DNA from: a virus
IMG/VR virus record: IMGVR_UViG_3300025280_000088
Location: 1-35,647 of that record
Reading direction: 5' to 3' (one strand)
DNA length: 35,647 nucleotides
The notes under the pieces were generated by a model that saw nothing but the letters and a program-made list of their open reading frames with translations, did no database searches and had not been told where the DNA came from. This document shows, in pieces, positions 3,366-30,924 of the stretch. A program made the position numbers and the translations under genes. Positions within the stretch are counted from its first letter, which is position 1; each line of letters opens with the position of its first letter.

Positions 3366-4648
3366 TAGGATGCCGTCCTTACGTTAGTAAGGAATGGGAA
3401 GGCTCTCTTGTTCTGCTCAGACATACCAAAATAGAATGTTGCCTGTTGTCTTCTTGCATCTGGATCAGTTGCAGGACTTCCAGACTGTGAAGACAGAGCC
3501 AAGGCTGTAGCCTTGTTGATTACATAGCCATCATCTATCTCAGAAGTAGCAGAGTCAGATGTTAGGAGAGCAGGCTTATCTCCGCCCTTGATCTTGAGGA
3601 GTTTATACCCCATGTAGCTCACACCATCAGTCGTGAAAACAATATCCTGAGCTGCCTTATCAACTCTCCATAGCTGGCTGGGTACGTCTTCCCATGTAAT
3701 GGTGTTGTTAGCAACTACCTTAATATCATCCAGCCAGAGATAGTAAGCAGCACCACCGCCTATATCTACATCTTGCTCTAGACCTATAGATATAATCGCT
3801 GTATCTAGTTCTGGTGTACTTAGCTGCAGTCTGACATAAGTCCATGTATCAGCCGATAATGCAGGGATATCAAGAGTTTCTAGTGGTGATACACAGTTAG
3901 CCGTATTATCTAAAGATATCTTTAGATTAGCTGAAGATGTGGCAATAGAAGATTTTATCCAGAACTCTAGATAATCGTATTTACTAATATCTTTAGAGGA
4001 TATATCTGTTGTAAGAATTGCTCCAGCAGCAACGCCTGCACTGTCATCTAGCTTAAACTTAACCGATCCAGTACCTTGCTTCTTATCCTCAGTATCTACA
4101 GAAGATGTGAAATTTGAGACAGCAGCACCATCAAAGGCAGTACCGCAGGTATGAAGACTAGCCCACTGCATCTTGTCTCGCATCTGAATCTTGTTGACCA
4201 TAGCAAAGTCAGATGGCAGATCGAATCGGGAGTCATATCCATTTGAGTGTAAACTCAAACTCTCTAATGGGTCATAGACCTGACCAGTCACATCGAGTAT
4301 TGCCTGATTGATGAACTCATTGATCAGGGTGGGTGAATACCCATCCCACATCTCATACTTATCTTCATCAGTAGTGGTAGCTGGAGCAGCCTGTATCGTG
4401 AGAGTCCCACCAGTAGCATAGTCGGAGACCCTGCGCTCTACCTCTCTGTTCGTAGACTGCCCGACATCGTTATAGAACCAGATATATCTGCCGTTATAGA
4501 TGTCATTGCCACCAAACAGAATAGTATCGAGTAGGGTAGTTTCACCATTAGAACCAGGAGTAGAAGTAGCAGCACCTACATGGAGTGCGCCAAGGTTATA
4601 GCCTACGGACTGACGTATCTCCTGACGAGTTCGTTTCTGTATAACCAC
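3365..4648 (-). CDS. Neck/tail protein with an embedded carbohydrate-binding-like beta-sandwich
   Basis: The 427-aa protein has an N-terminal third (about residues 1-165) that looks like a phage connector or tail adaptor: a basic start, a beta segment, then a helical SPTLINEFINQAILDVTGQ and a LPSDFAMVNKIQMRD segment. Residues of about 170-315 read like a jelly-roll carbohydrate-binding or LamG-type module: DYLEFWIKSS, then TWTYVRLQLS, then YYLWLDDIKVV, which is the typical strand order and spacing of such sandwiches. The C-terminal 100 residues return to a helical region (INKATALALSS; RRQQATFYFGMSEQNKRAFP) seen in neck-type proteins. So a glycan-binding-like domain seems inserted into a connector-like protein. 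It lies between the small 73-aa gene and the 652-aa tail gene. The fold assignments are inference from pattern. Confidence 0.55.
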   Translation of the reverse strand: MVIQKRTRQEIRQSVGYNLGALHVGAATSTPGSNGETTLLDTILFGGNDIYNGRYIWFYNDVGQSTNREVERRVSDYATGGTLTIQAAPATTTDEDKYEMWDGYSPTLINEFINQAILDVTGQVYDPLESLSLHSNGYDSRFDLPSDFAMVNKIQMRDKMQWASLHTCGTAFDGAAVSNFTSSVDTEDKKQGTGSVKFKLDDSAGVAAGAILTTDISSKDISKYDYLEFWIKSSIATSSANLKISLDNTANCVSPLETLDIPALSADTWTYVRLQLSTPELDTAIISIGLEQDVDIGGGAAYYLWLDDIKVVANNTITWEDVPSQLWRVDKAAQDIVFTTDGVSYMGYKLLKIKGGDKPALLTSDSATSEIDDGYVINKATALALSSQSGSPATDPDARRQQATFYFGMSEQNKRAFPFLTNVRTAS

Positions 4649-14000: not shown

Positions 14001-17000
14001 CCTGTAGAGAAAATAAAGTTTGGAGGCAAGGCAAAAGTTTCAGGAGTTGTATTCTTCAGATGGACAAGCACTGCTACGGCTGCTGCACGTTCTGATGCAT
14101 AATTACGACCCCACTCATGCATACCCTCGACTACTTTATACCTATCACGATGAGTCATCTTTCCAGAAGGAAGAAGCTCACCTGCCTCTTCCCTGATACG
14201 AAATGTTCCTACGTTACCATCTATAACATCATCAATAGACCACCGTACCCTGTTTGGTTCGGCTGTACCACGCTTACGGTTGGTAAGTAATTGGTCAGTA
14301 ATTTTACCAAGTGCTTCATTAAAATTATCTGTCCACGGGTTTCTTCGATCAGTAATAGTTGAAATACGGATAATCGGAGCCTTTGTCACCCCCTGCTTGC
14401 CAGGAGCAGGATCAATTATCTGTACTGTTACATTCCCTAAACCTTCAATATCGTAGTTTCCTAAAGAATCTTTAGGTCTGATTACTGTTTCTTTACGGAC
14501 CTGATCACTGAAGATAGTTTCTGATCTTGTGTAACTTCCTTCTGGCAGTATTTCATCTTCATCAAAAGCCCGAATAATATTTTCATACTGTGCCTCCACC
14601 ATATCATCGGTGGCAGAACTGCCATTAGCAGGAGCAACATATATATCATAAGCAGGACCACTTATAGTACGCATCTCCGTAATTGCTTCAGGAGCAGCTT
14701 GTTCCGTCTTTAAATATTCTGCTGAAGAATATTCGCCCATATCCAGTTTTTCTACACCTGCTGTAGTTCGTTCTTCTAGATTAGTTAAAGGACCAGACAT
14801 CCAAGAATCACCAGTCTTGTTAATCCAGAATGCAGGGTGTCCAGGTGTCCAATTTGCACCTGAGCCTCGACCACTTACATACATAGGGTCTGTTATTGCT
14901 TCTAATAATTCTTCTTTACCTAATCCAATCATCTTCTGTATCATGTCAGACTGGACTTCTTCTACATGGAATATCTTCTTTACAACTTCTACTCCATTTT
15001 CAAGTTCTGTTACTGACCGTACAGAATATCTTCCTGACACGAATATATTTGTTCTTGCAGATGTTGGAATGGGAGTATGAGAAACTGCTCCACCTTCCAT
15101 TAATTCCCTTGTTTGCCCATATAGCCCGTCAACAAGGTCTTTATTCATCATATTTACGCCATACTGACTGCCGTAATGACCATGAGGATACTCTAATTCT
15201 CCAAGCGCACTACCCCTTTTGTCCCAGTCACTAGGACGATCTTCTGCCAGTGGACTCATAGCCTTTCTGATAGCAGATTCCTCTGACATATTGGGAACAT
15301 CGAGCTTGAGTAGTATTACTCCCTGACGCTCGGCTGGACCATGCAGAGTTGCATTGAACTGTGTCTCGGAATACAGGTCAGATATATTAAACTCAACTAT
15401 CTTTGCCCTGTTTGTGTCCATATGCTCCCGTAGAGCATGTATGGATATCCTTTTGCCCTTGTTATCCCTGAGCAACCTGTTAATACCAAGGGCTTCCAGT
15501 TCCTCTGAGCTGATTTTTAGCCCTGAGAACCTGCCCATCGCTTCATTTTTAGGAACATTACGTCTATTAGTACCTTTAGTAGTGCGATCATTAAGGTGAT
15601 TAAAAAGGTCATCAGCATTAAAGGTTTTATCTCTGTCTCTCAATAACCCCTGTGCGCTTGTTCCTCGTATCTCCCATACATAATCGAGCCATTCATCGAA
15701 GTTATGCTTAAAGGGAATAACATCCGTACTTGGATCAACTACCTTAAAGAGATACCCCTGTGGGGCGAACATATTAACGCTGTTGATAGACTCTTCAAGA
15801 GCACTGTTGGCAGCACCGTCAGATATCCTTGAAAAGCGCATCTGACCAGCAAGAAAATCAGTATCTCCAGATGTGCTGTTGGAAATCTGACCAATTATCC
15901 TAGTCTGTAGATCAGCTTCTGAGTCATTTATACCCATATCTATCATCTGCTGTCTAAGCCTTACAGAGTTTGTACCATACTCTGCTATATCAACCGATGG
16001 ATCGAATGCCTTTAGGTTATATAAAGCGTGGAAATCAGACTTAAACGTGCCTGACATACCATTTCTGGCAGCTTTCCACTGCCTCCACATGGGTTTAATA
16101 TAAGCATCAGCAGGTCCGAAGATCGCAGCGAATGGAGGAGAAGCAAACTCAAGAGTATTGAGTGCTGCTTCAAAGTCACCCATCAGACCTTCTTCATCAC
16201 TATAGAATAGACCTCCCTGAGCATTGATTTCAGGGTTGAAGACTATGGATGCACCAGCAGTGGGAATAGCCGCAGCAAACTCTGCTCCTATCTTTACTCC
16301 CACTTCTGCCATATTCTGGGGAACTGGACCTGCGCTAAGAGAGTTTACTATTCCGCTTCTTAGGTCTCTTGCACTTACTTCACCTATGATATCTGGTGAA
16401 TGTATGACATTTTTTTTACGCCATACCTCTTTAAATAGACCAGTATTATTTGCAATAGGTCTTCCGTTCTCATCTTCTTCTGGACCATAAGTGATATGGG
16501 GTATGGCTTCCTGTGTTCTCTCGTACCCTTCTCTGCGAAGCCTATTGGCTTCGATAGAAACAGTACGCCTCTTATCAGGGTCTAGAATTAGTTCTACTGG
16601 CTCTGCCCATATCTTAGTAGATATATCTGTGATTACATTGGGAGCACCAAGCTGGCGATTATAAAATACTTCCTCTCCCCTTGCAGGAGAGAGATTAATA
16701 TTTATAGTTCCGTCATCTTTCACACCTTGAGCAAGAACACTTTCTGAGATTCCTAACTCTGAAGCAATAACATTCGCTTCTTGAGCCTTACCAGGTAAAA
16801 GAATCTGATCCCAAGATGGAACATCCCATGTATATCCCTTGCCTGCAGAAAGATTGAGAAGTCCCTCGGCAACATTCTTGTAGGGCGCAGTAGCATACTG
16901 CCTTATTCTCTGGTTTGCCTCAGTATATCCTTCAGGTAGAAGAGCATCAGTTGCAACATCAGTTATATCTTTTACTTGACCAAAATACTGGAAGGGTAGA

Positions 17001-17248
17001 GAAGGTAGTACCTCACCCATTGTGCCGAGCATACTCTGGATTCTGGAGGTCCAGTCACCCCCACGCTGACCGCCTTCAGGGGGAGAATCCCATACTAGCG
17101 CATCGGATATGGTTTTAAACCATTCTGATTCGCTACGTCTTTGTAGATTCTCTTTCCACTCATCTCGGCTTGTTGCTACCTTGAGAGCTGGAATGGGAAT
17201 CTTGTCCCACCATTTCTCTTTTCCGTAATACCAATGCTCATTTGACAT
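8075..17248 (-). CDS. Giant polyvalent-type virion protein with zinc-metallopeptidase motif (3057 aa)
   Basis: This gene takes up 26% of the window. About residues 580-1170 match the conserved layout of phage large polyvalent proteins (the family described for multi-domain proteins injected with DNA): a GLKISSEELEALGI segment, then SETQFNATLHGP near 640, FHVEEVQSDMIQ at 760-771 (family motif EEIQSDWHQ), and KMTISTGQIVLNKY at 1104. Residues of about 1270-1550 are long coiled coils. At 1737 a gluzincin motif HEIGH appears, with a following FAEAFE segment that can supply the third zinc ligand. The C-terminal part (about 2350-2800) has helical segments like the LPD38-type domain. The gene lies between the 111-aa gene (TAATG overlap) and the scaffold. 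It is likely packaged and ejected, protecting or reshaping the host cell. Domain names are from pattern memory, not a search. Confidence 0.8.
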   Translation of the reverse strand: MSNEHWYYGKEKWWDKIPIPALKVATSRDEWKENLQRRSESEWFKTISDALVWDSPPEGGQRGGDWTSRIQSMLGTMGEVLPSLPFQYFGQVKDITDVATDALLPEGYTEANQRIRQYATAPYKNVAEGLLNLSAGKGYTWDVPSWDQILLPGKAQEANVIASELGISESVLAQGVKDDGTININLSPARGEEVFYNRQLGAPNVITDISTKIWAEPVELILDPDKRRTVSIEANRLRREGYERTQEAIPHITYGPEEDENGRPIANNTGLFKEVWRKKNVIHSPDIIGEVSARDLRSGIVNSLSAGPVPQNMAEVGVKIGAEFAAAIPTAGASIVFNPEINAQGGLFYSDEEGLMGDFEAALNTLEFASPPFAAIFGPADAYIKPMWRQWKAARNGMSGTFKSDFHALYNLKAFDPSVDIAEYGTNSVRLRQQMIDMGINDSEADLQTRIIGQISNSTSGDTDFLAGQMRFSRISDGAANSALEESINSVNMFAPQGYLFKVVDPSTDVIPFKHNFDEWLDYVWEIRGTSAQGLLRDRDKTFNADDLFNHLNDRTTKGTNRRNVPKNEAMGRFSGLKISSEELEALGINRLLRDNKGKRISIHALREHMDTNRAKIVEFNISDLYSETQFNATLHGPAERQGVILLKLDVPNMSEESAIRKAMSPLAEDRPSDWDKRGSALGELEYPHGHYGSQYGVNMMNKDLVDGLYGQTRELMEGGAVSHTPIPTSARTNIFVSGRYSVRSVTELENGVEVVKKIFHVEEVQSDMIQKMIGLGKEELLEAITDPMYVSGRGSGANWTPGHPAFWINKTGDSWMSGPLTNLEERTTAGVEKLDMGEYSSAEYLKTEQAAPEAITEMRTISGPAYDIYVAPANGSSATDDMVEAQYENIIRAFDEDEILPEGSYTRSETIFSDQVRKETVIRPKDSLGNYDIEGLGNVTVQIIDPAPGKQGVTKAPIIRISTITDRRNPWTDNFNEALGKITDQLLTNRKRGTAEPNRVRWSIDDVIDGNVGTFRIREEAGELLPSGKMTHRDRYKVVEGMHEWGRNYASERAAAVAVLVHLKNTTPETFALPPNFIFSTGNFHIPVLRRLMFHAASEGADKMTISTGQIVLNKYKDEAMPYANMRYGEVDGRKGQLLEATEKLVEDVQHTAGWGTWKNSDTRALIETTEIPIGTDMKTSKELTEYYSSHKVRRLGHQIISEEVGTNPSWEYRLGQHTQLIDDSDLRLLDPDLHNEMVNQVDYFPNKLTSPEHRAEVEESLRLLDVGTLAKVASERHTASVLKDRIAKGERQLEALGTWDDESMLGNPDAYQKALRDIENDIAQARKELSALDLSRENLYEDLENVVDGMSDFHTRINTAVKQTQKVYLDKGVSRGQVKASDAEITAMEEEIDELRRTIDALTDEQKRLPVEDKGGIQYEIDDTKEELNDALKNLTNAKKIRGERPTGTVQKFTSGLEIAEMEEEIADLNQNIIAEMANLADGSYGPASQNAAGVWIGGPSVDRVQGDIYEWGSKLAEVEKKLSASRQTNSDIRLGKPPSDIRIPKIMERVSQNQELLESVDEFTEMGLSGPSVQRETPISVFDLLELGGVPTSRTRHGSSKQELLDAIAEIAIENNPKINAKQLEDTVGVSKHLVTMEDRPTDKTVSVHSIRLKDNLLEPSELILSKGFKARPNKGVKAFSTLSESLTNVQMRLFQINGDIPNGGKVLGFTDFNNDGKYWLNFTEAADFQTGIHEIGHVLRRQLSEEQLRIAGEFSMGKEGYDSLVNKNIWTRAGEEKFAEAFETFVMTGYAPNQQVRGVFERFKDMLLNVIRAIKGSPHEESLSPAMKDMFDDILNTRKPSIKTIEANVPAHLIPQAKKFYGYRVDDYIVADDGNLEQVAERLFHTVDEPEVRPLVEELSSLSTMDTILSTNMINDHYAKFMRMPGLRLILGRLDPSTAATDPLAKSLIAHAMLKAEGDQKAQIAFARLRRLGTQDDVFGATNDNGHLIEGAFEGQELNVNDIRTYPDRYGHLLDDKQKEWIANAQAIEEAKRRMFAVEGIEINDLEFEEGGHYAGRIVMSKIFIDGDIAETVSFPRAGGVGRVGAKSTQEKRRVFETEKEAIAAGYRYLNDDEALSLNLQSAYRRVADKRAVDYIVQNVVWSRTSAAPQELLLRNNVAIERVDAAKKLIDELQRAKRGGQITAQTRKSIETLLPEMEGMLDDVSAISLDQLVKAGRVASDQPIDATPRKGAIKALFNKVKELEVEVATIEASGAEVPSELINRLNKMKRRLGFTKFAVREAYENYAATGDFEYTFSRSARSILMEDKVGAIDELLEMVRGTPYYHTVGDNRYTRYRGGFIDTLRSDAADVAAEKSLLEEKIKKKHLTEGSLQSKVPAFTGRFFEEDQPTNLGFIKDEGTGEMRRIKGSDVDDIIVKSMVENQEFSKILNSVNTVNSALRFFQLAGDMSLFGIQLLFLMGHATTHPKWLYDTMKGFVHAFIDPTVHAKVIDENKELLERHPGFLLSTGGTEFTEFTRVLSNAGFVRAKPIKIAAEVLGKDPTRIIPTAGKLYMGFLRGAQQGFESAIDIAGIELLKSLDHKAVDAISTQQIDDFTNEFRGLANSSRLGTTAKQRQWESLALLAPRYNRAIVAMLADVGRGGLRGDEARKKLASGIAAISAMAVAFSLARGEDPDEIVEHFTPTSPKFMTWNIDGTNVGFGTKVRSLIKLSASIYTTVQQGEGDKLNDWSMDNPGFRFIRGNLSPILSTGVDSLMGRTYMGEPVWGEGWNIASHAKNFTMTELLPKTMPIWAQAVLLEGGNVQQRGVKGVSEFFGGRGYPESSYQLIQGYAKDIIGIDYEDMEPFERRLLRQHLKDVLDPMMEERIARGDKNAQYWDALNKNDEDRIIDEEALLRQFYNPRKYPQFLIGGANTLREEFARIQNQYAQNRAAINETFAMYQDDVEFDSKDPHKFIMQEWYALYDLAKYDESDVFDHDRLERLQRAFWDRKLPDGQSYKDYQDFIYRNTSTAEHPDAYQNLLPKSTVSRWRRAETMQAEFLEKRGNWSKILDNTGR

Positions 17249-18162: not shown

Positions 18163-20010
18163 CTATCCTCCCGGACTTAATCCAGAACCTATCTGTGTAT
18201 TTGTAGGTATCATACCAAAATAATCATTTTCGTGAACATACTCAAGCCACGACACAGTTGGGTCTTTATCAGGAGTAGTAAGCCAGTCGTTATGCAGACG
18301 ATGTAATATTTTAGAAGTTTCATTCCTCAGTGTCGGGTGAGTATTCTGCATAATCGGAAGAGCAGCAAGTGCCTTCTGGTTTACTACTGATCTGGGACCT
18401 TCAAAGAATGAATGTCTCCATCTATATGCTTGTAGTTGCTCAGAAGAATAATCCTGATCTACCCCAACAGGATCATATCTATCCCACGTTCCACCAGGCT
18501 TATCAGAGTCTACCTGCCTTACAACATCAATAATCTCGCCTATCCTGCCAGTAAGAGAATCTCCAGTGAGCGGAACATAAGTCTGTAAAAAGTTATTATA
18601 TCTATTTTGATCATATATATTTGACTGTGGACCGAATACTATCCCACCTTGAGGTTCTGCCCCTATGACATGACCACCTTCTAGCTTCCCTCCCCACGGG
18701 TCATCTTCCGTAGCCTGTGTCAAGAACTGTGTGTAAGTAGTTCTCTGAAGGGGATCATTTGAAAGTCCCTGATCTGAATGGTATTTGAATACGGCAGGAC
18801 TGCCTGCTGCACCAAATTTATCATTAAGAAAATCTTGGTATATAGGACTCCAAGGAACAGAAGAGTAGCTGCTGGGAGTAAAGTCTGAGTCAGGTCTTGG
18901 GTCTTCAGCTAAATCTGGTGGAAAAGATGTAGAAACAACTTCTTTTGTCCAGAAAGGACTTAATTTATATGTCTTATCTAAAACCGCCCAGGGTTTATCA
19001 GTGGGTAGGTTCTGACGGAGGAATTCTTTACTTCTTCCTACTATAGTAGCAAGAACACCAAGAGCATTATCTTTAGCTGTTAACCATTTTTCTAAATCGT
19101 CTTTATTATTTTTATCAAATCCAGATAATACCCCTGGCATATTATCAAGAATTATTCCTAATGCTTCTTCGAGATGACCCTCCCCTGAAGGTGCATGTAT
19201 GTCAGCAGCATAAGATCCCAAAAACCATTTCATAAAATCTGATCTATGGAAGTCCGTTCCCCCTGGATAATAAATCTGCACTATCTCTGATTTTATCTTT
19301 TCAAGATCACTGAATCTTATAGAGTATGAGCTTTCTCCTGCTTCAAGTTCTCTCTCTAAACGAACTTTTTCTAAATCTGCTACAGGACTAGCTGCTCCCC
19401 AATATAATGACTTGCGATTATCGTATGCCTGCTGACCAGCATCAGTATCAAATACAATCTTGTCAGTATCAGGCCACCATTTACGATCAACCCTTTCTTT
19501 TTTGAACTGGTAACTGATTCCAGTTGTAGAATCGGTCCAGTATGATGTTTCACCATATTCAGTAGGTTCAGGCTGCTCACCACCAGTACCGATCATCTCT
19601 GGGTCCATTGTCAGTCCGAAGTCATCAACTGGTGTATGCCATCCACGAACTGCACTAGGAACATTAGATACAGGTGGCGCAGTTCCTGGACCTGCAAACG
19701 CTTCTGGGTCTTCTTCAGGATCAGCAGGAGTTGCAGGAATATTAACTGGAGGTGTAAGAGGTAAATTTAATGGACTGGTTAATGGAGTAGGTTGCTCCAC
19801 TGACTGACCCGGAAGAACTGGTCCCTGAACAACAGGAGGAGGGGCTACTGGTTCTGGAGGAAGTTCGGGTTCATTGAATCCCCCGTACATAATCGGGTCT
19901 ACATAAACTCCACCCATGCCATAAGATATGGTTGAAGTTACACGACCAGCATCATTGATCCTGTCAACAAACATCCCATTTTCATCTCGGGATACCCTTC
20001 TAAACCCCAC
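18163..20010 (-). CDS. Portal-proximal virion protein with Pro-rich N-terminus (615 aa)
   Basis: Residues of about 50-130 are a Pro/Val/Glu-rich low-complexity region (PEPVAPPPVVQGPVLPG and following), probably disordered. The rest is a mixed region with many Trp, Tyr and Asp residues and a C-terminal helix block (ETSKILHRLHNDW) shared with the 189-aa neighbour. No enzymatic motif was recognised. It starts three bases after the portal stop, so the order is terminase, portal, this gene, paralogue, paralogue, giant protein. That position and the disordered linker suggest a minor capsid or internal (ejection) protein. The start at 20010 gives MGFRRVSRDENGMF. Confidence 0.6.
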   Translation of the reverse strand: MGFRRVSRDENGMFVDRINDAGRVTSTISYGMGGVYVDPIMYGGFNEPELPPEPVAPPPVVQGPVLPGQSVEQPTPLTSPLNLPLTPPVNIPATPADPEEDPEAFAGPGTAPPVSNVPSAVRGWHTPVDDFGLTMDPEMIGTGGEQPEPTEYGETSYWTDSTTGISYQFKKERVDRKWWPDTDKIVFDTDAGQQAYDNRKSLYWGAASPVADLEKVRLERELEAGESSYSIRFSDLEKIKSEIVQIYYPGGTDFHRSDFMKWFLGSYAADIHAPSGEGHLEEALGIILDNMPGVLSGFDKNNKDDLEKWLTAKDNALGVLATIVGRSKEFLRQNLPTDKPWAVLDKTYKLSPFWTKEVVSTSFPPDLAEDPRPDSDFTPSSYSSVPWSPIYQDFLNDKFGAAGSPAVFKYHSDQGLSNDPLQRTTYTQFLTQATEDDPWGGKLEGGHVIGAEPQGGIVFGPQSNIYDQNRYNNFLQTYVPLTGDSLTGRIGEIIDVVRQVDSDKPGGTWDRYDPVGVDQDYSSEQLQAYRWRHSFFEGPRSVVNQKALAALPIMQNTHPTLRNETSKILHRLHNDWLTTPDKDPTVSWLEYVHENDYFGMIPTNTQIGSGLSPGG

Positions 20011-20013
20011 GCA

Positions 20014-21852
20014 CTACCCCCTTGGTCCCAGTAACCCCAGACTCCTTAATGCCTCTTCTGCTCCCTGACCGTTCTGTGCACCTGGTCTCGGAGAGCCAGG
20101 CGGAACATTGGGACCACCCTGTGGTGTCGGGGCAGGAGGCGGAACGCCCATCATGGCATTAGGCATAACCATTGGGTTTGCTGTCGGTGGACCTCCCTGT
20201 CCGCCACCAGCTCCTTGAGGAGCACCGGGACCTTGAGGGGCACCCGGCTGCTGTGGCATCATGCTTTGCTGTCTCATCATCTGCTTCTGCATTAGTAAGT
20301 GCATCAACTCACCGTAGTAGAACTGGGCAAGATCAGGTCGTCCACGTTCTTCAGTTGCCTGAAGAAGAGACCAGAGAGAGGCTTCTGGCAGCACTCTCTC
20401 TGCCATCTGTTCTTTGATTGAGTCTTCTATAGAATCAGCATCTTGCATTCCAAGTATCTTATCCCTGACATAGATGTCTGACAGCAAGGGGGTCGGACCC
20501 TCTCTTGCCATCTGCGCCATGCTCATACGGGACATATCATCTTCTGGCAACTGGCTTACAAGAGATATCTCTGGAGTTCCTGCCATGCCTATGGAGTCAG
20601 GAGCCACAGCCTCACTGAAATAAACCCTGTTTCTGTCTCTTCCGCTCACACTGACAGGATCGTATATTCCAGTGGAATACTGGTCGCATATAAGATGAGA
20701 AATCTGTATGTAGGCATCTTCCATTGCCACTATCCGTGGCTGTAGAACACTGTCTATACCCTGCCTGAGAGTATTAATGGCAAATCCCGATAGCTGGAAC
20801 TGCAGGTCTCCGTACACGGTATGCGGTATAGCCCCACGCTGAAGTTCTCCTGAGACCATGCCCATATAGGCTCCAGTCTCCTTGGCGACTTCCATCAGTC
20901 CAAGGGGCTTTATATCCTCTCCCTGTGCAAGAGCAACCTCGGCTCCTGCCTTGTACGGGTCTTCATCAAGTGTCTTCTGCCCATCTCTTGATGTGATGGT
21001 TATCCCCTGCTTACGGGAACGGGCAACCATCTCCATCATCACTGACATGGTGAAGTTGTGCTTATCGTATATCTCCCTGTTGGGAGCAAAAACGGATTCC
21101 CCGTACTCAACGATAGTGTCGGTTACGGATGTATTATCTATATTCTGTACGAGCGGTTGAGGTCCAACCATACCTATAAACACTGGAACCCTGTCGGCTC
21201 CGTGGGGAGTAGCCTGCTTCAGTATGGTATCGCCCGTACAGACAATATTATGCTCTTCATCATAGTAGTCATAGACTTCTATAGGTGTCTCGTCATCCTG
21301 CTCGTCAAGTTTAATACTGTACTGCTGAAGAATCTCATCCTTTGTTTTGTGTATCCGATAACATGCCCACGCAAGACCCTCTTCACCTTCACCCCAGTAT
21401 GTATGAAGAGGGTCCCACGGAGTTATATCAACCTGTGTTCTCTCCTTGGAGTCGATGTGAAGTAATGCCCTTCCTGCATACCATCCTCTGAGAGCAACAA
21501 ACCATGCCAACTGTTCTCTAAGTGATGGCTGAAGCCTGCGCCGTAGCCGTTCATCCGCAGCCCTGAGAATGCCTACGAGAAACTTCTCCTTGGCATCATT
21601 GACTTCTCTCATCTCCCTCGGCTCTTCGATGTTGGGGATTCGTATGATCAGCTCCGCAGAACTCATCCATGAGATTATCTTGTCGGCATAAGTGCGTGGC
21701 TCGTTGGATGTATATGACTCGTACCCGTCACCAGCATCGTATGGGCGCATAATGTACAGGTCATAGTCAGATTGCATCCTATCTCTGAAGGGATATGTCG
21801 AGTCTCTGTGTCCCTCAACCAGTTTTGCTATTTCGTCTGCAGTCTTTCTCAC
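20014..21852 (-). CDS. Portal protein
   Basis: The 612-aa protein is the right size and in the right place, overlapping the terminase large subunit by ATGA (21849-21852). The N-terminal half is helical, with R/D/Y-rich segments (RDRMQSDYDLYIMRPYDAGDGYESYTSNEPRTYADKI). The middle has WDPLHTYWGEGEEGLAWACYRIHKTKDEIL and VEVYDYYDEEH-type strands typical of portal wing/stem regions. Next comes a long helical stem and crown region (FAINTLRQGIDSVLQPRIVAMEDAYIQISHLI). The C-terminal 110 residues are Gln/Met/Pro/Gly-rich and low complexity. The protein would form the dodecameric DNA channel at the capsid vertex. Confidence 0.85.
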   Translation of the reverse strand: MRKTADEIAKLVEGHRDSTYPFRDRMQSDYDLYIMRPYDAGDGYESYTSNEPRTYADKIISWMSSAELIIRIPNIEEPREMREVNDAKEKFLVGILRAADERLRRRLQPSLREQLAWFVALRGWYAGRALLHIDSKERTQVDITPWDPLHTYWGEGEEGLAWACYRIHKTKDEILQQYSIKLDEQDDETPIEVYDYYDEEHNIVCTGDTILKQATPHGADRVPVFIGMVGPQPLVQNIDNTSVTDTIVEYGESVFAPNREIYDKHNFTMSVMMEMVARSRKQGITITSRDGQKTLDEDPYKAGAEVALAQGEDIKPLGLMEVAKETGAYMGMVSGELQRGAIPHTVYGDLQFQLSGFAINTLRQGIDSVLQPRIVAMEDAYIQISHLICDQYSTGIYDPVSVSGRDRNRVYFSEAVAPDSIGMAGTPEISLVSQLPEDDMSRMSMAQMAREGPTPLLSDIYVRDKILGMQDADSIEDSIKEQMAERVLPEASLWSLLQATEERGRPDLAQFYYGELMHLLMQKQMMRQQSMMPQQPGAPQGPGAPQGAGGGQGGPPTANPMVMPNAMMGVPPPAPTPQGGPNVPPGSPRPGAQNGQGAEEALRSLGLLGPRG

Positions 21853-23870: not shown

Positions 23871-24371
23871 CTACTCATCTATCTTACTAGTCAGTATCTC
23901 GTTAACTTGATCAAGAGCTGATTTCTCTGGTTCAGGAGCTTCAGCAAGCTGTTCAGGTGAGTCTTTAGACAAGGCTCTAAGCTCTCTCAGTACATCCTTA
24001 GCAGTATCATCGTTCATGACGACAGTAGGTCTATACTTCATAGGCAAGTTCGCATTCAACAGTGTGATCAGCAAGATCGGATTGGACTTAGCGTCCTGCA
24101 TCTTAACTCTCTCCAATGCCAACTGCTCAAGTGACTCACAGAACTGGAAGTCTGCTTCTTCTAACCGTTCCATGAAACCAAAGTAGTTATCCTTCTGCCA
24201 CTTCATTACTGTTCGATACTTAACTCCAGCATAACTAGCAGATGTAGTCTTGCTCCTCGTCTCACTGTAGCAAGATAAGAACTTATCTTGGTTTCTCCAG
24301 CTACGTTTTTGGCTAGGACTTAGTGCTTTATAAGTATCATCAGTCTTGCTATCTATCCTAGTACCTAGCAT
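23871..24371 (-). CDS. terS: Terminase small subunit candidate (166 aa)
   Basis: The N-terminal half has a helix-turn-helix pattern: LSPSQKRSWRNQDKFLSCYSE, then TTSASYAGVKYRTVMKWQKD, then FGFMERLEEADFQFCESLEQLALERV, in the style of terminase small subunits that bind the packaging site. The C-terminal half is acidic and helical. It lies upstream of the small membrane and basic genes and terminase large subunit, all on the minus strand. An AGAGAGG site (24377-24383) is five bases upstream of the ATG at 24371. Inside the gene, CAAGATAAG at 24271-24279 forms a 9-bp hairpin with its complement at 24282-24290. The name is from pattern, not a search; a regulator with HTH is the alternative. Confidence 0.7.
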   Translation of the reverse strand: MLGTRIDSKTDDTYKALSPSQKRSWRNQDKFLSCYSETRSKTTSASYAGVKYRTVMKWQKDNYFGFMERLEEADFQFCESLEQLALERVKMQDAKSNPILLITLLNANLPMKYRPTVVMNDDTAKDVLRELRALSKDSPEQLAEAPEPEKSALDQVNEILTSKIDE

Positions 24372-24755
24372 ATTTACCTCTCTGACCTAGCGGTAAACCG
24401 CTAGGTTTAGTAGCTTGAGTATGTTTACATACTCTTTGTCGAATTTCCGCTGAGTTTACCACAGACTAGCTTGCTAGTCTGGCAGTTTGAGTTTAAACTG
24501 GACTCTGAGATGTAAACATCTCAGGTTGAAATTGGAGGTCGCTGACTCCCCTCCTGGAAGAAAGAGCATTCAATACCTTCCCTAAATACCCCTCCCCATC
24601 AGAAGTCTACCACCCTAAGATCGCTTCGCTCTCAGTGTCAATGGTAATACATTGACACAGAGTCTTAGGGAGGTGGGATGAATACATCGGCAATTTCGCC
24701 GAACAAACCCCTCAGTAAACTGAGGGAGATGCCCTAAAGGGCAAGGAGGACATAA
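24372..24755. promoter_or_regulatory. Divergent intergenic control region full of inverted repeats
   Basis: This 384-base gap separates the leftward (structural) and rightward (early-type) genes, so promoters for both arms are expected here; no clear -35/-10 pair could be fixed by eye. It holds perfect inverted repeats: ACCTAGCGG at 24385 (stem 9, loop TAAA), GAGTATGT at 24417 (stem 8), CAGACTAGC at 24462 (stem 9), a GTTTAAAC site at 24491, CTGAGATGT at 24505 (stem 9), then a nested leader structure (24613-24670), TCGGC at 24687, CCCTCAG at 24709 and TGCCCT at 24730. The last is followed by AAGGAGG (24743-24749), six bases from the ATG at 24756. No gene was seen in it. Confidence 0.75.
24613..24702 (+). 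promoter_or_regulatory. Structured leader module, copy 1
   Basis: An outer stem CCCTAAGA (24613-24620) with TCTTAGGG (24663-24670) encloses a hairpin with arm GTGTCAATG (24635-24643), loop GTAATA, and its complement to 24658. It is followed by a TCGGC/GCCGA hairpin (24687-24702). The hairpin core TGTCAATG, loop ending AATA, CATTGACA, is repeated at 26821-26846 with the same order of outer stem, hairpin and GC-rich second hairpin before another gene start. Such conserved layout suggests an operator or an RNA leader bound by a regulator. Confidence 0.65.
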
Positions 24756-25172
24756 ATGTCCAAGCTGACCAAAGCAGCACTAGCGAAGCTAGAGAAAGCT
24801 GGAGACGACGGCAAGATGAAAGTCGGAGACTTTCTAGCACTCTGGCTAGACCCTAAGTCTAGCCTAGCTGGAACTAAGGGGAATATCGGTGAAGAATTCA
24901 CCGATAAGAAAACTGGTCTTACTCGTAAGACCACTAGCTTCCACTCAGTACTGAGTGGATTCAACGAAGCCTTTAGGCTTTACTACGACTGTGACAGCAA
25001 AGCTGTCATTTCGGCGATGGAAAAAGCCGAAGAGCTAAAACTAATCTCGGTGAGATTAGTCGGTCGAGGTCAAAGCGGTAAGGGAGTTCCCGGTGCTAGA
25101 ATCTCTGCATACAGAGATTCTAGTGGAAGAGGCAAATCAGCCTTGGCTGATTTGGGAATCAAGGTTAGCTAG
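24756..25172 (+). CDS. Unrecognised 138-aa protein, first gene of the rightward arm
   Basis: The protein is Lys/Ala/Gly-rich and basic with a helical start (SKLTKAALAKLEKAGDDGKM), a middle with DKKTGLTRKTTSFHSVLSGF and YYDCDSKAVISAMEKAEEL, and a Gly/Arg/Ser-rich C-terminal part (VGRGQSGKGVPGARISAY). This may bind nucleic acid. No known family was recognised. It has an ideal Shine-Dalgarno, AAGGAGG, six bases upstream, and is followed by a perfect intrinsic terminator, so it seems to be a transcription unit of its own, likely highly expressed. Its codon choice is very odd: most of the sequence is made of inverted repeats (see next entry), and the stop codon TAG lies inside a 24-bp palindrome. 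The function is unknown. Confidence 0.8.
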   Translation: MSKLTKAALAKLEKAGDDGKMKVGDFLALWLDPKSSLAGTKGNIGEEFTDKKTGLTRKTTSFHSVLSGFNEAFRLYYDCDSKAVISAMEKAEELKLISVRLVGRGQSGKGVPGARISAYRDSSGRGKSALADLGIKVS

Positions 25173-25186
25173 CTAGCTAGCTAACC
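24780..25186. repeat. Series of back-to-back inverted repeats inside a coding sequence
   Basis: Inverted repeats seen along the gene, given by left arm: CTAGC 24780; GGCTAGAC 24844 (stem 8); TATCGGTGAA 24884 (stem 10, loop 3); TGGTCTTAC 24914 (stem 9, loop 2); a perfect 20-bp palindrome 24940-24959; AAGCCT 24967 (stem 6); TGACAGC 24992 (stem 7); TTCGGC 25010 (stem 6); ACTAATCTC 25040 (stem 9); CTAGAATCTCTG 25096 (stem 12, loop 4); CAAATCAGCC 25133 (stem 10, loop 2); a perfect 24-bp palindrome 25163-25186 with half GGTTAGCTAGCT. Loops are short (0-5 bases) in most. The transcript would be a chain of hairpins. The following gene has only two or three, so the pattern is local. Confidence 0.9.
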
Positions 25187-25190
25187 CACT

Positions 25191-25231
25191 AGCCCTACAG
25201 GACTTTAGTCCTGTAGGGCTTTTCTCGTTTA
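25191..25231 (+). terminator. Intrinsic terminator after the hairpin-rich gene
   Basis: A perfect 13-bp stem, AGCCCTACAGGAC at 25191-25203, loop TTTA, and its complement at 25208-25220, is followed by TTTTCTCGTTT. It lies 18 bases after the stop codon at 25172 and directly after the 24-bp palindrome. It is a strong rho-independent terminator and would separate the first gene from the downstream small genes, or allow partial read-through. Confidence 0.9.
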
Positions 25232-25269: not shown

Positions 25270-25761
25270 ATGCCTAAGAATCAAGCGAAACTAAGAGTAC
25301 TAGAAGTGACTACAGTAAGTGACATATGCTTCCAGTGCTCTAGGGAATGTAGAACTACTATCAACAGTCCTAAAGGACTGATCTACCTATGCTCTAACCA
25401 GTGTCAGCATAACTTCCTGCTTCAAGCAGGACTAAAAGGCTACAACCAGATTAGAGACAAGGAAGACCTGAAGCTAACTACAGTCGGCAAGCTGAATGAG
25501 TTAACAGCTAAAGAACTAGAGAGAATCTACAGGTTTAAACACAAGCTAACAAGAGACCAGATGAATAGAAACAAGGAAGGTGATTCTATCGACAGGCTAT
25601 TTAGCAGCATGGGTTTGAGGTTAAACCCAAAGAAACCTAGCAGAAGGGTACAAACTAGGATGCCGTTTGACTGGGAATGTGACTGTGCTAAAGCAGAATG
25701 CAAGGTATGTAGAGCTACAGGCTTAGTCACCGATGAACAAGTAGAGAAACTGCCTTGGTGA
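25270..25761 (+). CDS. Zinc-finger (TRASH/FCS-like) small protein (163 aa)
   Basis: Near the N-terminus cysteines C20, C23, C41 and C45 form C-x2-C-x17-C-x3-C with a YLCSNQC end, close to TRASH or FCS-type treble-clef zinc fingers. The C-terminal part has a second cysteine group (WECDCAKAECKVC). Between them is a basic helical region (LTAKELERIYRFKHKLTRDQMNRNKEG). The protein probably binds metal and may bind nucleic acid or a protein partner. It starts at 25270 after AAGGAA, and it ends 15 bases before the next small gene. It carries two in-gene hairpins (CAGTCCT at 25365, TCCTGCTT at 25415) and one GTTTAAAC site (25533). Confidence 0.7.
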   Translation: MPKNQAKLRVLEVTTVSDICFQCSRECRTTINSPKGLIYLCSNQCQHNFLLQAGLKGYNQIRDKEDLKLTTVGKLNELTAKELERIYRFKHKLTRDQMNRNKEGDSIDRLFSSMGLRLNPKKPSRRVQTRMPFDWECDCAKAECKVCRATGLVTDEQVEKLPW

Positions 25762-26257: not shown

Positions 26258-26292
26258 TAGGGCAAGGTACTTGGATACCTTGCCCTATTTTT
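26258..26292 (+). terminator. Intrinsic terminator
   Basis: A perfect 12-bp stem, TAGGGCAAGGTA at 26258-26269, a six-base loop, and its complement at 26276-26287 is followed by TTTTT. It lies directly after the 82-aa gene. An alternative smaller hairpin, CTAGATT/AATCTAG, lies just before it. Confidence 0.9.
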
Positions 26293-26804: not shown

Positions 26805-26891
26805 TACCAATACTACACAGAATGTCAATGAGAATACATTGACATTCATTAGTAGTCTCGGTATGTTTGAGCGACTCGCCGAAGGTCGGCG
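26804..26891 (+). promoter_or_regulatory. Structured leader module, copy 2
   Basis: This has the same layout as 24613-24702. Outer short stems, ATACC (26804-26808) with GGTAT (26860-26864) and ACTAC (26812-26816) with GTAGT (26852-26856), enclose a 10-bp hairpin with arm AATGTCAATG at 26821-26830, loop AGAATA and complement to 26846. A CGCCGA/TCGGCG hairpin follows at 26877-26891. AAGGAGG and the ATG of the next gene then follow. The core TGTCAATG..AATA..CATTGACA is identical in both copies. Confidence 0.65.
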
Positions 26892-27130: not shown

Positions 27131-27448
27131 TTGGAAGTTATAAGTGAAATGAAAGGATTCGGAGCAGTCAAGGGAGAAGCAACTGGTATTGCTAGAACAC
27201 CAGATGATCCTAACTTCAAGGAAGGAGACATACTGGTAGCTAATATGACAGTACCAGCTAATGTACCAGTAATGAAGCTGGCATCAGCTATTGCCACTAA
27301 CATCGGCTCGATAACGTGCCACGCTGCGATAGTAGCAAGGGAAATGAACAAACCATGCATAGTTAGAACTGGTAATGCTACCCAGTTAGCAGGCAAGTTC
27401 ATAACAATCAGTGTCAAGGGAATAAAGGAGGCACAGATTACATGGTAA
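27131..27448 (+). CDS. Stand-alone PEP-synthase-type phosphohistidine swivel domain (105 aa)
   Basis: The sequence has the hallmark of the PEP-utilizing enzyme mobile domain: KGEATGIARTPDDPNFKEGDILVA, then TVPANVPVMKLASAIATNIG, then the phosphoacceptor region SITCHAAIVAREMNKPCIV with His64, then TGNAT, then a strand with KFITISVKG. In PEP synthase, pyruvate phosphate dikinase, and rifampin phosphotransferase this histidine carries phosphate between an ATP-grasp-like domain and the second active site. Here only this swivel is encoded, and the ATP-binding domain is a separate gene at 30133. The TTG start at 27131 is used because AAGGAG (27117-27122) lies eight bases upstream; an internal ATG at 27149 would give a shorter protein with no good site. 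It overlaps the next gene by seven bases. Confidence 0.85.
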   Translation: MEVISEMKGFGAVKGEATGIARTPDDPNFKEGDILVANMTVPANVPVMKLASAIATNIGSITCHAAIVAREMNKPCIVRTGNATQLAGKFITISVKGIKEAQITW

Positions 27449-28118: not shown

Positions 28119-28949
28119 ATGAGCAACCTAAGTGATCACTGGTTAGACAACAAGGTAGGTAAAACTACCTATTTTATAGAGGAGTGGCACGGCACTTGGG
28201 TTAATATCACCGAGACTACTACAGAAGCTGTAGTTAATACATATCAAGATACTGGACCTGTTAATCCAAACCAGAAAGTACTGGTAAAAGCTGGAGCAAA
28301 CCGTTGGGGTTTAAACTCAACAGGCTGGAACCTATCGAAGGCTGCTGCCGACTACTACATACTCCACTTGGCTACTATCTACGATGAGGAAAGGTTTAAA
28401 CCATACCTGGCAAGACACACTGACATACTGGTTGACCAGTTCTCTAGATACACAGACATGGCAGTAGGTGGTGAGCTAAGGCACAGTAGGAGTACTGATG
28501 GATTTGCAAGACCACTGAAGGAAGCACTGAGAGATGGCACTGTACAGGGTGGAAGGACTCATGCTTGGGAAGGATGGTACTGGTTTAGGTCAAGGTATGG
28601 AGTACTGGCACTCAAGTGGGCAGTGGAAGCATTCAATGACGGTGGCAAATGGGGTGCAAGCTACGGTGGACACAGGTGGGGAACCATAGCCAATACCCTA
28701 TACATGTTTGAAAGGGATGAAACAACACCTCAAACATTTGTCGATACATGCTGGGGACTACAGCATAACGGTGGTATCTATTTCAACAAGTGGTGGAACA
28801 CACAAGATGTGAAGTATGTTCTGGATTTAAACCAGAATGGTAGCTACTGCAAGCTGTGGTACTACTCGTCCCACATAGTGCAGGGGTTACTACCACTAGA
28901 CACAATAAAGGAGGAGATGTGTCAATGTTATCAATGCGAAAGCTGCTAA
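28119..28949 (+). CDS. Unrecognised Trp/Tyr-rich protein with Cys-rich tail (276 aa)
   Basis: The 276-aa protein is rich in Trp, Tyr, Gly and Asn. It has WNLSKAAADYYILHLATIYD at about residue 68, a central GGRTHAWEGWYWFRSRYG, then KWGASYGGHRWGTIANTLYM and a WGLQHNGGIYFNKWW segment. The last residues (EEMCQCYQCESC) hold four cysteines, which might bind zinc or be an exposed cysteine tail. No known fold was recognised. It lies between the SprT-like gene and the phosphatase in a tight run (start two bases after the SprT-like stop). It may be a target or partner of the phosphotransfer proteins, which is inference only. It contains two GTTTAAAC sites (28309 and 28394). Confidence 0.7.
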   Translation: MSNLSDHWLDNKVGKTTYFIEEWHGTWVNITETTTEAVVNTYQDTGPVNPNQKVLVKAGANRWGLNSTGWNLSKAAADYYILHLATIYDEERFKPYLARHTDILVDQFSRYTDMAVGGELRHSRSTDGFARPLKEALRDGTVQGGRTHAWEGWYWFRSRYGVLALKWAVEAFNDGGKWGASYGGHRWGTIANTLYMFERDETTPQTFVDTCWGLQHNGGIYFNKWWNTQDVKYVLDLNQNGSYCKLWYYSSHIVQGLLPLDTIKEEMCQCYQCESC

Positions 28950-29905
28950 GAAAAGGGAGAAAACTATTGGGTAAGAAAAAGAAGAAGTATCAAGGGAACC
29001 TATGGAAAGACGTAGGAGATATATCGTTCTTTCTCAAGGGTGACATAGTAAAAACACCTGATAAGAAAAGGGGAAGAGTTGTTGGTGTCAGGGGTGATGA
29101 CGTAGATGTCTATGTGTTTGACGACACTAGACTACAGATGTTTGATGCTGATGTCCTTGAGCTAGAGACAGCAGTTGATGGATGGGGAGGCAACAAGATA
29201 ACCAAAGGCTCTACTTATACAAAGAGCAAATACTCATACCCAGTATACAAACCCTGTAACCACTGGATGGATGAGTTCGATCTACTAGATGGATGGAAGA
29301 TATACCTGTCTGGTAAGGGAACACCGAGTGCTAAGAGAACAGGAGCAGACCCTACGATGGGATGCTACATGGACTCAGGATGGATGCTCGGTAACATGTT
29401 CTGGTTTACAGCCAATGCTCCTGTTAATCCAGACCTGTTTGAAAAGGAAGATATACCCACACTCTATATCAAGTGGGCAGATATGCAGGGCATACCGCTA
29501 AGAGAGTACAGCGAGGCTGTAGTCTGGTGTCTATCTAGAATATTTGAGGGAGAAACCCTAGAGATAGGATGCCACGGCTCTCATGGCAGGACAGGAACAC
29601 TACTGGCAGGAATACTGGTGTACCAAGGGATGACAGCGGAGGATGCCATCAAGATGGTACGGGCAAAGCACTGCGACAAGGCTATTGAAACCAAACCCCA
29701 GGAAGATTTAATTGCAAAATATGCGGAGGAGTTAGCTAAACAAAATGGAACAATCGAAGAAACTATTGAACCTACAAGTGAAACTGCAGACAGTGAGGAA
29801 CCAGAAGGGGAAACTGATGCAGGGGACAGCGACATTTTACTCACAGCCACCGAAGGACTGGGTGAAGATGCTACTGGAACTGGGAACACAAGCACCAGTA
29901 GTTAA
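28925..29905 (+). CDS. Tyrosine/dual-specificity-type phosphatase (326 aa)
   Basis: Residues 216-222 read C-HGSHG-R, the CX5R signature of cysteine phosphatases, in IGCHGSHGRTGTLLAGIL. The acid loop is WADMQGIP with D186 (WPD-type). Residues of about 20-85 are a basic, small beta-type region (GDIVKTPDKKRGRVVGVRGD) that resembles an SH3-like or KOW-type fold. The C-terminal 55 residues are acidic, Thr/Ser/Glu-rich and likely disordered. The start at 28925 is chosen for GGAGGAG eight bases upstream; it overlaps the 276-aa gene by 25 bases. The phosphatase in the same run as an ATP-grasp and swivel domain suggests it reverses their product, or removes phosphate from a target. The family is clear; the substrate is not. 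Confidence 0.8.
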   Translation: MLSMRKLLRKGRKLLGKKKKKYQGNLWKDVGDISFFLKGDIVKTPDKKRGRVVGVRGDDVDVYVFDDTRLQMFDADVLELETAVDGWGGNKITKGSTYTKSKYSYPVYKPCNHWMDEFDLLDGWKIYLSGKGTPSAKRTGADPTMGCYMDSGWMLGNMFWFTANAPVNPDLFEKEDIPTLYIKWADMQGIPLREYSEAVVWCLSRIFEGETLEIGCHGSHGRTGTLLAGILVYQGMTAEDAIKMVRAKHCDKAIETKPQEDLIAKYAEELAKQNGTIEETIEPTSETADSEEPEGETDAGDSDILLTATEGLGEDATGTGNTSTSS

Positions 29906-30143
29906 GTGCAGTAGAAGTGGAGCTGGATGTCCAACATCTGTGTTTGATTTGCAACAGCACAATGGGCATGTCCCCATGTTTGATGACGAGAAAAAGCTAT
30001 TGAACTATGTTGACCGCATCGTCAAGGATGTCGAGAAGGAGTGCTCGACAATAGACTGGAACTTAAAGATGATGCAGAAAGAATCAGTAGAGTCACTGAC
30101 ATTCACACTAAAGAACTACATAAAGGACAACAATGAACAGTAG
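29868..30143 (+). CDS. Small hypothetical protein of the phosphotransfer cassette (91 aa)
   Basis: The protein has a Cys-containing N-terminal part (VVKCSRSGAGCPTSVFDLQQHNGHVPMF shows two cysteines and a His-Asn-Gly-His) followed by a charged helix (DEKKLLNYVDRIVKDVEKE). No family was recognised. The frame stays open further upstream, with ATG at 29817 behind GAAGGGG and at 29745, but these would overlap the phosphatase by 89 or more bases, so 29868 is preferred; the true start is uncertain. It ends 11 bases into the ATP-binding gene (30133). Confidence 0.5.
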   Translation: MLLELGTQAPVVKCSRSGAGCPTSVFDLQQHNGHVPMFDDEKKLLNYVDRIVKDVEKECSTIDWNLKMMQKESVESLTFTLKNYIKDNNEQ

Positions 30144-30924
30144 ATATTTGGTACGAGATTACCCCAGTAAACCTGACCATACAGTTAATGTAATAGGTGG
30201 CAAGGCACTACAACTCAGGAAGATAGACCCTGTTCTAGTGCCTGACTGGGTAGTTATAACTTCTGACTGTCCTGATGATAGGCTGCCTGATATATGTAAC
30301 AAGGCGTGGCATTCTATTGGTCCTAGCAACCTAGATTCTGTGCAGTATAAATTCATTAAGGAAAGTACCTATGCGGTACGTTCCTCTGCTATAGGAGAAG
30401 ACGGAAAGAACCAAAGTTTCGCAGGAATATTTGAGTCTAAACTCAATGTCCCAATCTCTGGTATAGAGCATGCAGTAAGAGAGGTGAGAGACTCGGCTCT
30501 AGCAGAAAGAGTACTAACTTATCAAGAAGCTCGTGACCTATCAACTCTAAGTGTACCTGCTGTAATCATTATGAATATGGTAGATGCCAAGTACTCTGGT
30601 GTTCTATTCACCAAGGAGCCAGTGGAAGGTACTGACAGGATGATGTTGGAGTATGAAGAAGGAGCAGGCGGTGTAGTGGATGGTACTGGTGATAGTAGCA
30701 TGCTCTTTTTAGACCCCAAAAATTTTGTAACGCCAGAACTAAACCGTGATGACTACCTAGTCAGCCCATTCTTTGGACAGACTTCCTTGCATACCATATG
30801 GACTGAAGCTAAGAGGCTAGCAAATAACTACGGCAGACCTGTGGATATAGAGTGGGCAATAGATCAAGACGACAAACCCTGGATACTACAAGTAAGACCG
30901 ATAACGGCAGGAGTAACAGCTTAA
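30133..30924 (+). CDS. Stand-alone PEP-synthase/PPDK-type ATP-binding domain (263 aa)
   Basis: The protein covers only the ATP-grasp-like N-terminal domain of PEP synthase, pyruvate phosphate dikinase or rifampin phosphotransferase. Motifs in order: GGKALQLRKI at 22-31, VPDWVVITSD near 36-45, YAVRSSAIGED at 80-90 (the VRSS arginine), SFAGIFES, SGVLFTKEP at 155-163, LEYEEGAGGVV, and DIEWAIDQDDKPWILQVRPIT with the ending strand at 250-258. All the key ATP-binding residues seem kept. A full PEP synthase is about 800 residues; here the substrate-binding part is absent and the swivel histidine domain is in another gene (27131-27448), with four genes between. The protein could charge the swivel histidine with phosphate from ATP. 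The start overlaps the previous stop by 11 bases. Confidence 0.85.
   Translation: MNSRYLVRDYPSKPDHTVNVIGGKALQLRKIDPVLVPDWVVITSDCPDDRLPDICNKAWHSIGPSNLDSVQYKFIKESTYAVRSSAIGEDGKNQSFAGIFESKLNVPISGIEHAVREVRDSALAERVLTYQEARDLSTLSVPAVIIMNMVDAKYSGVLFTKEPVEGTDRMMLEYEEGAGGVVDGTGDSSMLFLDPKNFVTPELNRDDYLVSPFFGQTSLHTIWTEAKRLANNYGRPVDIEWAIDQDDKPWILQVRPITAGVTA

Follow-up and report, generated by a model that had tools for sequence, protein, structure and literature searches.

The window, by which we mean the whole stretch of DNA analysed here, is a virus record of 35,647 bases (IMG/VR IMGVR_UViG_3300025280_000088). Its leftward genes include the small and large terminase subunits and a capsid protein, and its rightward genes include RecT and a PD-(D/E)XK nuclease. 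Large-terminase relatives occur in three contigs from Chloroflexota or Dehalococcoidia MAGs (56–58% identity), which makes a SAR202-type host likely, an assignment that rests on MAG binning. At the point where the two gene directions diverge, adjoining the small-terminase gene, an array of hairpins sets in that runs through a leader and a 138-codon gene. Gene order and content suggest that this gene comes first among the early genes of a deep-sea phage. The features of the locus are as follows.

23871–24371, minus strand: small terminase subunit gene, divergent from the array (phrog_4044, E 1.7e-8)
24385–24755, no strand assigned: untranslated leader with hairpins starting at 24385, 24417, 24462, 24483, 24505, 24635, 24709, 24730 and 24748 (8 stems, where dinucleotide shuffles give 0.96; z −7.9)
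24748–24761, no strand assigned: start-codon hairpin with loop TAAA (inverted-repeat scan)
24756–25172, plus strand: 138-aa array gene of no known family (codon permutations), with a possible winged-helix fold (low-confidence model)
24940–24959, no strand assigned: perfect 20-bp palindrome (inverted-repeat scan)
25096–25123, no strand assigned: 12-bp stem with a 4-nt loop, the longest stem wholly within the coding sequence (inverted-repeat scan)
25163–25186, no strand assigned: perfect 24-bp palindrome containing the stop codon (inverted-repeat scan)
25191–25220, plus strand: 14-bp hairpin followed by a T run, an intrinsic-terminator-like end of the unit (terminator scan)
25270–25761, plus strand: next gene, 163 aa, with weak hairpin carry-over (3 stems against 0.7)

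Scanning for stems of at least 6 bp with loops of up to 12 nt returned 22 non-overlapping perfect inverted repeats within 24385–25220, in line with the figure of about 22 given in the original prediction. Eleven lie wholly inside the coding sequence, one spans the start codon and one the stop codon; the prediction had claimed at least 11 inside, together with the 20-bp and 24-bp palindromes and the stop codon within the latter, all of which are present. At a stem of at least 6 and a loop of up to 10, the 11 stems of the coding sequence compare with a mean of 1.42 and a maximum of 6 in 1000 synonymous-codon permutations, and with a mean of 1.02 and a maximum of 5 when synonymous codons are chosen uniformly. 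The codon-shuffled control that had been proposed thus never reaches the real number, and synonymous codons in 24756–25172 are bent toward hairpin formation, as had been suspected; the same is seen in seven of the homologues and six of the GP88 genes described below. The RNA-folding check agrees, with a folding energy of −174.3 against −119.3 for permuted copies (s.d. 6.5, 150 permutations; z −8.4), the sense strand folding more strongly than the antisense (−154.5). In the 384-base leader, the 8 stems exceed the maximum of 6 in 500 dinucleotide shuffles (mean 0.96), and z is −7.9 from 100 shuffles.

The remaining 400-base bins of the window hold 0–3 stems of at least 7 bp. Downstream genes are less dense, as anticipated, with a weak carry-over into the gene at 25270–25761 (maximum 3 in 40 permutations). 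Milder excesses elsewhere speak against strict uniqueness of 24385–25220: the large terminase gene has 6 stems in 1.3 kb against 1.9 (maximum 5 of 40 permutations), and the RecT gene and one short ORF, with 3 stems each, are also above their permutations. Two isolated long hairpins lie at 26258–26287 and 26820–26847 (12- and 11-bp stems, 6-nt loops), the second of which resembles the leader hairpin at 24635–24658.

Several trivial origins were rejected. Contigs in three other IMG/VR records match over 12,414, 7272 and 5453 bases with one mismatch in total, which rules out an assembly artefact. The stems differ in sequence, and no family of direct repeats of at least 12 bases occurs within 24380–25225, so the array is not a repeat family. 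A series of intrinsic terminators is rejected as well, since only 25191–25220 has a qualifying T run on the plus strand; the minus strand has two weaker sites. A consensus search found no sigma-70-type promoter at the array locus, and Rfam gave no match at gathering score across the window.

The 138-aa protein belongs to no family in Pfam, PHROGs or NCBIfam. Its predicted model (mean pLDDT 67.9) has no Foldseek match at E 0.001; VIA-align gives a best Z of 7.8 with mostly winged-helix neighbours, and a winged-helix fold is at most suggested. Elsewhere in the window, positions 8075–17248 encode a 3057-aa protein with no enzymatic domain recognised by Pfam or PHROGs, and ORFs of 2144–5938 aa also occur in four phages with arrays (G001, G002, G003 and G023). 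A PEP-synthase-like set is split over 27131–27448, 28856–29905 and 30133–30924: the PEP-utiliser mobile domain (PF00391) and the PPDK_N ATP-binding domain (PF01326) each stand alone, and a gene with weak likeness to DSP phosphatases separates them. The set is kept in several relatives.

Fourteen homologues of the array gene were each put through 300 codon permutations. The persistence of hairpins among homologues, on which the original prediction had placed weight, holds for half of them. At stems of at least 6, seven exceed all their permutations (L011 and L013 with 9 stems each, L019 with 8, L017, L025 and L101 with 5 each, and L100 with 4; L011 and L013 are closely related to each other), and seven do not (L009, L016, L024, L030, L015, in which the gene is truncated, L096 and L097, the last exceeding its permutations at stems of at least 7). 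The positive homologues use stem sequences other than those of the window, and in L011, L013, L019 and L017 a hairpin also overlaps the stop codon or lies close to it. At some homologous sites (alignment columns 139, 262, 371 and 426 and the stop codon) a hairpin persists with altered stems; overall, hairpin positions are shared no better than chance between the window and L011 (6 of 10, P 0.13) or L019 (4 of 10, P 0.43). The large terminase of L009 is 89% identical to that of the window, yet its array-gene homologue lacks hairpins.

The array is not tied to this gene, and large-terminase relatives carry arrays over others. The GP88-family gene (PF17338) of L106, L108, L110, L111, L112 and L113 holds 17–20 hairpins against 1.35–2.14 in permuted copies; these are six of the eight closest GP88 genes, the other two being those of L107 and L109 (GP88, 96%). 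Six more distant GP88 genes have 0–4 hairpins, inside their permutation range. In L114, a distant GP88 phage, a single ORF is above its permutations (5 against 0.7, maximum 3). In L108 the array takes in the gene upstream of GP88 and fades downstream, consecutive genes having 13 stems against 1.3, 18 against 1.9, 4 against 1.1 and 6 against 2.0, followed by background. Stem bases change in pairs between aligned GP88 genes (for instance tagcatc/gatgcta to tagcctc/gaggcta; tggccc/gggcca to tagccc/gggcta). Because other genes carry arrays, gene-specific autoregulation is rejected as a general cause, and the earlier suggestion that the mRNA is bound by its own basic protein is unlikely as one. Within L112, positions 2885–3430 hold seven hairpins of near-identical stem (CAGCCC/GGGCTG or CAGCCT/AGGCTG) and differing loops, six of them 33–81 bases apart. 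Most of the relatives examined are without an array. Among the 80 large-terminase loci listed, 42 have at least 2 kb upstream, and these include near-identical copies of the window phage, L011, L019 and L045; 31 of the 42 have fewer than 8 stems per kb upstream and 11 have at least 8.

Unrelated phages, the isolates HMO-2011 and CRP-345 included, carry arrays of 1–10 kb. Loci were found by a pattern scan (C-GAA-G three times) and a density screen; the pattern found G001, G002 and G003 (also named L225, L215 and L240, respectively), G021, G022 and G023, and HMO-2011 was reached through its relative G023. Nine of the ten densest loci, the best ten of at least 120 found by the pattern, contain one or more ORFs that exceed all 30 permutations, with the provisos that L190 and L295 among the ten share one gene and that some GC-rich ORFs may be misframed. 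The main dense segment lies at 13–23 kb in G001, 31–38 kb in G002, 20–24 kb in G003, 0–5 kb in G022 and 17–20 kb in G023, and G005, G006, G007 and the window also have one main segment per contig. Dense segments peak at 12–19 stems of at least 7 bp per kb against a contig median of 0–2; G021 is weaker (10 per kb plus a second rise), and G016 and G017 peak at just 6. By the same measure, the peaks are 3 in lambda, 1 in T7 and 6 in the first 30 kb of N4. Most segments have a sharp onset and then decay along the covered genes, G003 ending before a possible decay, and they lie mostly at the head of an operon that we infer to be early from gene order and content.

In HMO-2011, the first genes are enriched (gp72, 5 against 0.7; gp74, 9 against 1.35; gp01, 5 against 1.5, P 0.005), and the other ten tested genes show no excess. 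CRP-345 gp01 has 6 stems against 1.18 (maximum 4 of 300), with a weak excess in gp02 and gp04; nine head genes tested in the Pelagibacter phages HTVC115P and HTVC103P show no enrichment. Mycobacterium phage Goose (L309) has 12 stems in the first kb at its left genome end, with 4 against 0.36 in gp1, and gp4 is also above its permutations (14 against 6.4, maximum 11 of 200). Its loops are larger than in other arrays, and for this reason and because of gp4 the Goose array may be a different thing. Twelve stems of 7–9 bp span its non-coding end, an HNH gene and the start of gp2 (244–902), and Twister has ten. Goose gp4 and the L114 ORF count against a neat localisation of the arrays. Among the genes that arrays cover in other phages are a CbbQ/AAA-type ATPase gene (G002 and G003) and a DUF2201 VWA/metallopeptidase-like gene (G001, 19370–20953). 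None of 15 homologues of one G001 array gene in other phages (22–38% identity) carries a comparable array, no 1-kb bin holding more than 5 stems, and array and later genes do not differ clearly in base composition. The locus at 24385–25220 exemplifies a feature that recurs in phages: short perfect palindromes with minimal loops are packed densely over the leader and first gene or genes of an operon, whatever those genes are.

The loops of these hairpins are strongly biased. Among 392 triloops in 14 arrays, the closing pair is C-G in 296 and G-C in 16, where background is about 1:1; GNA (127) and TNC (89) together account for 216 of the 392, or 55% against 12.5% expected and 8–18% in background 4-bp triloop hairpins. 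The eight arrays that were not found by the pattern show the same (C-G 132, G-C 0; GNA/TNC 104 of 159), and so do the closing pairs once the four mutually related GP88 arrays among them (L106, L111, L112 and L113) are also removed (C-G 26, G-C 0). Of 220 tetraloops in the 14 arrays, 128 have complementary ends, and GNRA and UNCG together are not enriched (7 of 220 against about 10 expected by chance). Window loops are mostly TAAA, TTTA and CTTG; 13 of 14 tetraloops have complementary ends, and only 4 of 21 hairpins are triloops, 2 of them GNA. One-mismatch stems in nine arrays comprise 27 G-T, 15 A-C and 94 other mismatches (about 7, 7 and 29 in shuffles), and GP88 comparisons of L106 with L110, L111, L112 and L113 give 8 G-T, 16 A-C and 40 paired double changes, so that G-U pairs are not clearly preferred over A-C. 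Over their first 600 nt, GP88 genes fold similarly strongly in sense and antisense, and ViennaRNA loop energies do not separate the loops with either DNA or RNA parameters. Given the DNA-type loops, the lack of an RNA tetraloop excess and the mixed G-T and A-C counts, strand-specific RNA selection is not the main signal, some RNA contribution being possible. On either strand, closing pairs and loop sequences obey the rules of DNA hairpins, which supports a DNA mini-hairpin rather than an RNA hairpin as the optimised unit. The original prediction had ranked structured RNA first and cruciform DNA last; loop closing, loop sequence and tetraloops favour the reverse order.

Loop lengths, spacing, stem lengths and synonymous sites bear on whether hairpins are selected or arise as a by-product. 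Enrichment is concentrated at loops of 0–6 nt, with its peak at 2–3 nt, and disappears beyond 6 nt in the window and beyond 8 nt in G002; L106, L111, G001 and G003, four of six arrays, have a modest excess at some loop lengths of 9–40 nt. Mean gaps between hairpins are about 20–47 bases. Hairpins are spaced more evenly than expected at random in L106, L112, L113 and G003 and not so in the window, L011, L111, G001, G002, G022 and G023. Leader stems reach 16–17 bp in G001 and G002 against a mean of about 7 in genes, and those of the window are no longer than stems in the coding sequence (means 8.1 and 8.5). Changes at fourfold sites are fewer in shared stems, the best case being L106–L111 with 1 of 35 against 26 of 71, a count conditioned on perfect stems in both sequences. 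When stems of either sequence are taken, changes from L106 number 4 of 44 against 26 of 71 for L111, 9 of 41 against 23 of 74 for L110 and 18 of 37 against 35 of 52 for L113; in L106–L112 stem sites are not conserved (22 of 45 against 21 of 47). The excess amounts to about 378 perfect stems against about 94 near-perfect ones with one mismatch. On balance, loop lengths, spacing, stem lengths and synonymous sites favour selection for hairpin stability.

We lean, tentatively and short of even confidence, toward a DNA mini-hairpin array selected where early DNA is supercoiled or single-stranded, a reading in which folding in vivo, timing and benefit are what we infer. Early in infection, DNA at the operon head would be strongly negatively supercoiled or partly single-stranded, and each palindrome would fold into a mini-hairpin that is stable and resists nucleases, in the manner of the N4 promoter hairpins under gyrase. 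Those hairpins depend on gyrase for their extrusion in vivo and need a C-G closing pair with a loop 5′G and 3′A (PMC4496689), and GNA mini-hairpins are very stable, withstanding both heat and nucleases (PMC4686876). What would count is density, not the exact sequence or position, and the likely benefit, which would fall while the operon is first transcribed or replicated, would be to absorb superhelical stress, to keep exposed strands folded and protected, or both. Several observations weigh against this DNA reading: sense folding is stronger than antisense in the coding sequence and G-T mismatches outnumber A-C, positions are not shared beyond chance and the close relative L009 lacks the array, the window has few triloops and leader stems no longer than those of its gene, and spacing is regular in some arrays only while L106–L112 stem sites are not conserved. 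Twin-domain supercoiling, moreover, would favour the region upstream of an operon and not its inside. More guardedly still, the arrays might represent an undescribed phage device, in which the head of the early operon, along with its genes, is recoded into extrudable, nuclease-resistant DNA mini-hairpins that act by density rather than sequence on the topology or single-strand exposure of incoming DNA, and which has arisen or spread across unrelated phages from marine and other sources.

The main rival to selection for hairpin stability is template switching, in which a nascent or displaced single strand folds back at a stable loop, the polymerase copies that same strand and imperfect repeats are made perfect. 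The palindromes would then be a mutational by-product, dense where the segment is close to an origin, to a genome end or to the start of heavy transcription, with no benefit to the phage needed. The prevalence of perfect over near-perfect stems, stems unrelated in sequence whose positions turn over, loops that follow DNA stability and the modest excess at 9–40 nt are all expected of such a process, and a study of Nematomorpha mtDNA makes the same argument there (PMC6649704). Against it stand the restriction to short loops in the window and G002, the regular spacing in four arrays and the conservation of stem synonymous sites in most comparisons, and confinement to one operon head requires an extra assumption; we consider template switching unlikely. 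Less likely again is that the early mRNA is the structured molecule, which would gain nuclease protection, block Rho or R-loops, or resist an RNA-targeting defence. An array that spans leader, gene and terminator-like hairpin as a transcript would, begins at the operon head and decays downstream fits this idea, as do the sense folding of the window gene and the slight excess of G-T over A-C in one-mismatch stems. The lack of GNRA/UNCG enrichment, the abundance of both GNA and TNC with dominant C-G closings, the reverse order of G-T and A-C in the GP88 comparisons and the similar folding of both GP88 strands argue the other way.

It is very improbable that the hairpins serve an N4-like RNA polymerase carried in the virion, or another phage protein that reads hairpins, as promoters or loading sites. 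The hairpin type does fit N4 extrusion rules in several relatives, very long ORFs occur in several array phages, including the 3057-aa protein of the window, and the N4 record has promoter-like hairpins at positions 557 and 4546, whose assignment to particular promoters we presume and which are C-TCC-G on the sense strand. The arrays, however, place dozens of hairpins within genes, facing either way; N4 genes themselves have no array (of 24 tested, none has P below 0.05 and one has 0.050); Pfam and PHROGs show no RNA polymerase domain in the 3057-aa protein; and PF00940 matched none of 12 records in a search whose positive control also matched nowhere. Most improbable of all is an effect on guide-based immunity, for which the DNA exposed first would be a poor source or a poor target because guides or spacers made from it fold on themselves. 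The array does lie near the terminase in the window family and at the genome end in Goose, and the mean gaps are near guide or spacer length, but RNA-guide energetics would not yield DNA-type loops and the G001 array does not adjoin the large terminase gene.

Should the preferred DNA reading hold, a second, non-protein message would be written through phage genes by synonymous codons, which would change the understanding of early phage DNA and the reading of phage codon bias. If the palindromes are instead a by-product, the arrays would mark a strong local palindrome-making process in phage replication. Their presence in cultured phages (HMO-2011, CRP-345 and perhaps Goose) makes hairpin extrusion during infection directly testable.

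No description of such arrays was found in the open-access literature searched, which agrees with the statement in the original prediction that no described phage gene of this kind was known. The nearest kinds in that literature are N4 promoters and Nematomorpha palindromes. REP/REPIN elements, Rickettsia RPE and integron attC sites are also palindromes, some inside genes, and form families of one sequence; array stems, unlike these, differ from one another and share no direct repeat of at least 12 bases. The early promoters of the N4 vRNAP (PMC4496689) resemble the arrays in their short stem, 3-nt loop, C-G closing pair and 5′G/3′A loop, in their early phage region and in non-conserved stem bases that are free if pairing is kept. 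This triloop type is frequent in the L106 and L111 arrays and rare in the window, where TAAA, TTTA and CTTG loops prevail over GNA triloops. In N4 the promoters are single sites and no array runs through coding sequence, in contrast to dozens of hairpins per genome that run through genes in both orientations. The C-G-closed GNA triloop favoured in several relatives is also that of d(GCGNAGC)-type DNA mini-hairpins, a synthetic and thermodynamic motif rather than a genomic system (PMC4686876). In the mitochondrial genomes of Nematomorpha (PMC6649704), perfect inverted repeats of up to 284 bp are scattered through functional protein genes, few are imperfect and palindromes are gained and lost between species, as in the phage arrays. 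The phage stems, by contrast, are mostly 6–17 bp with loops of 0–6 nt, extend into non-coding leaders and are concentrated at one operon head, in one main segment per contig.
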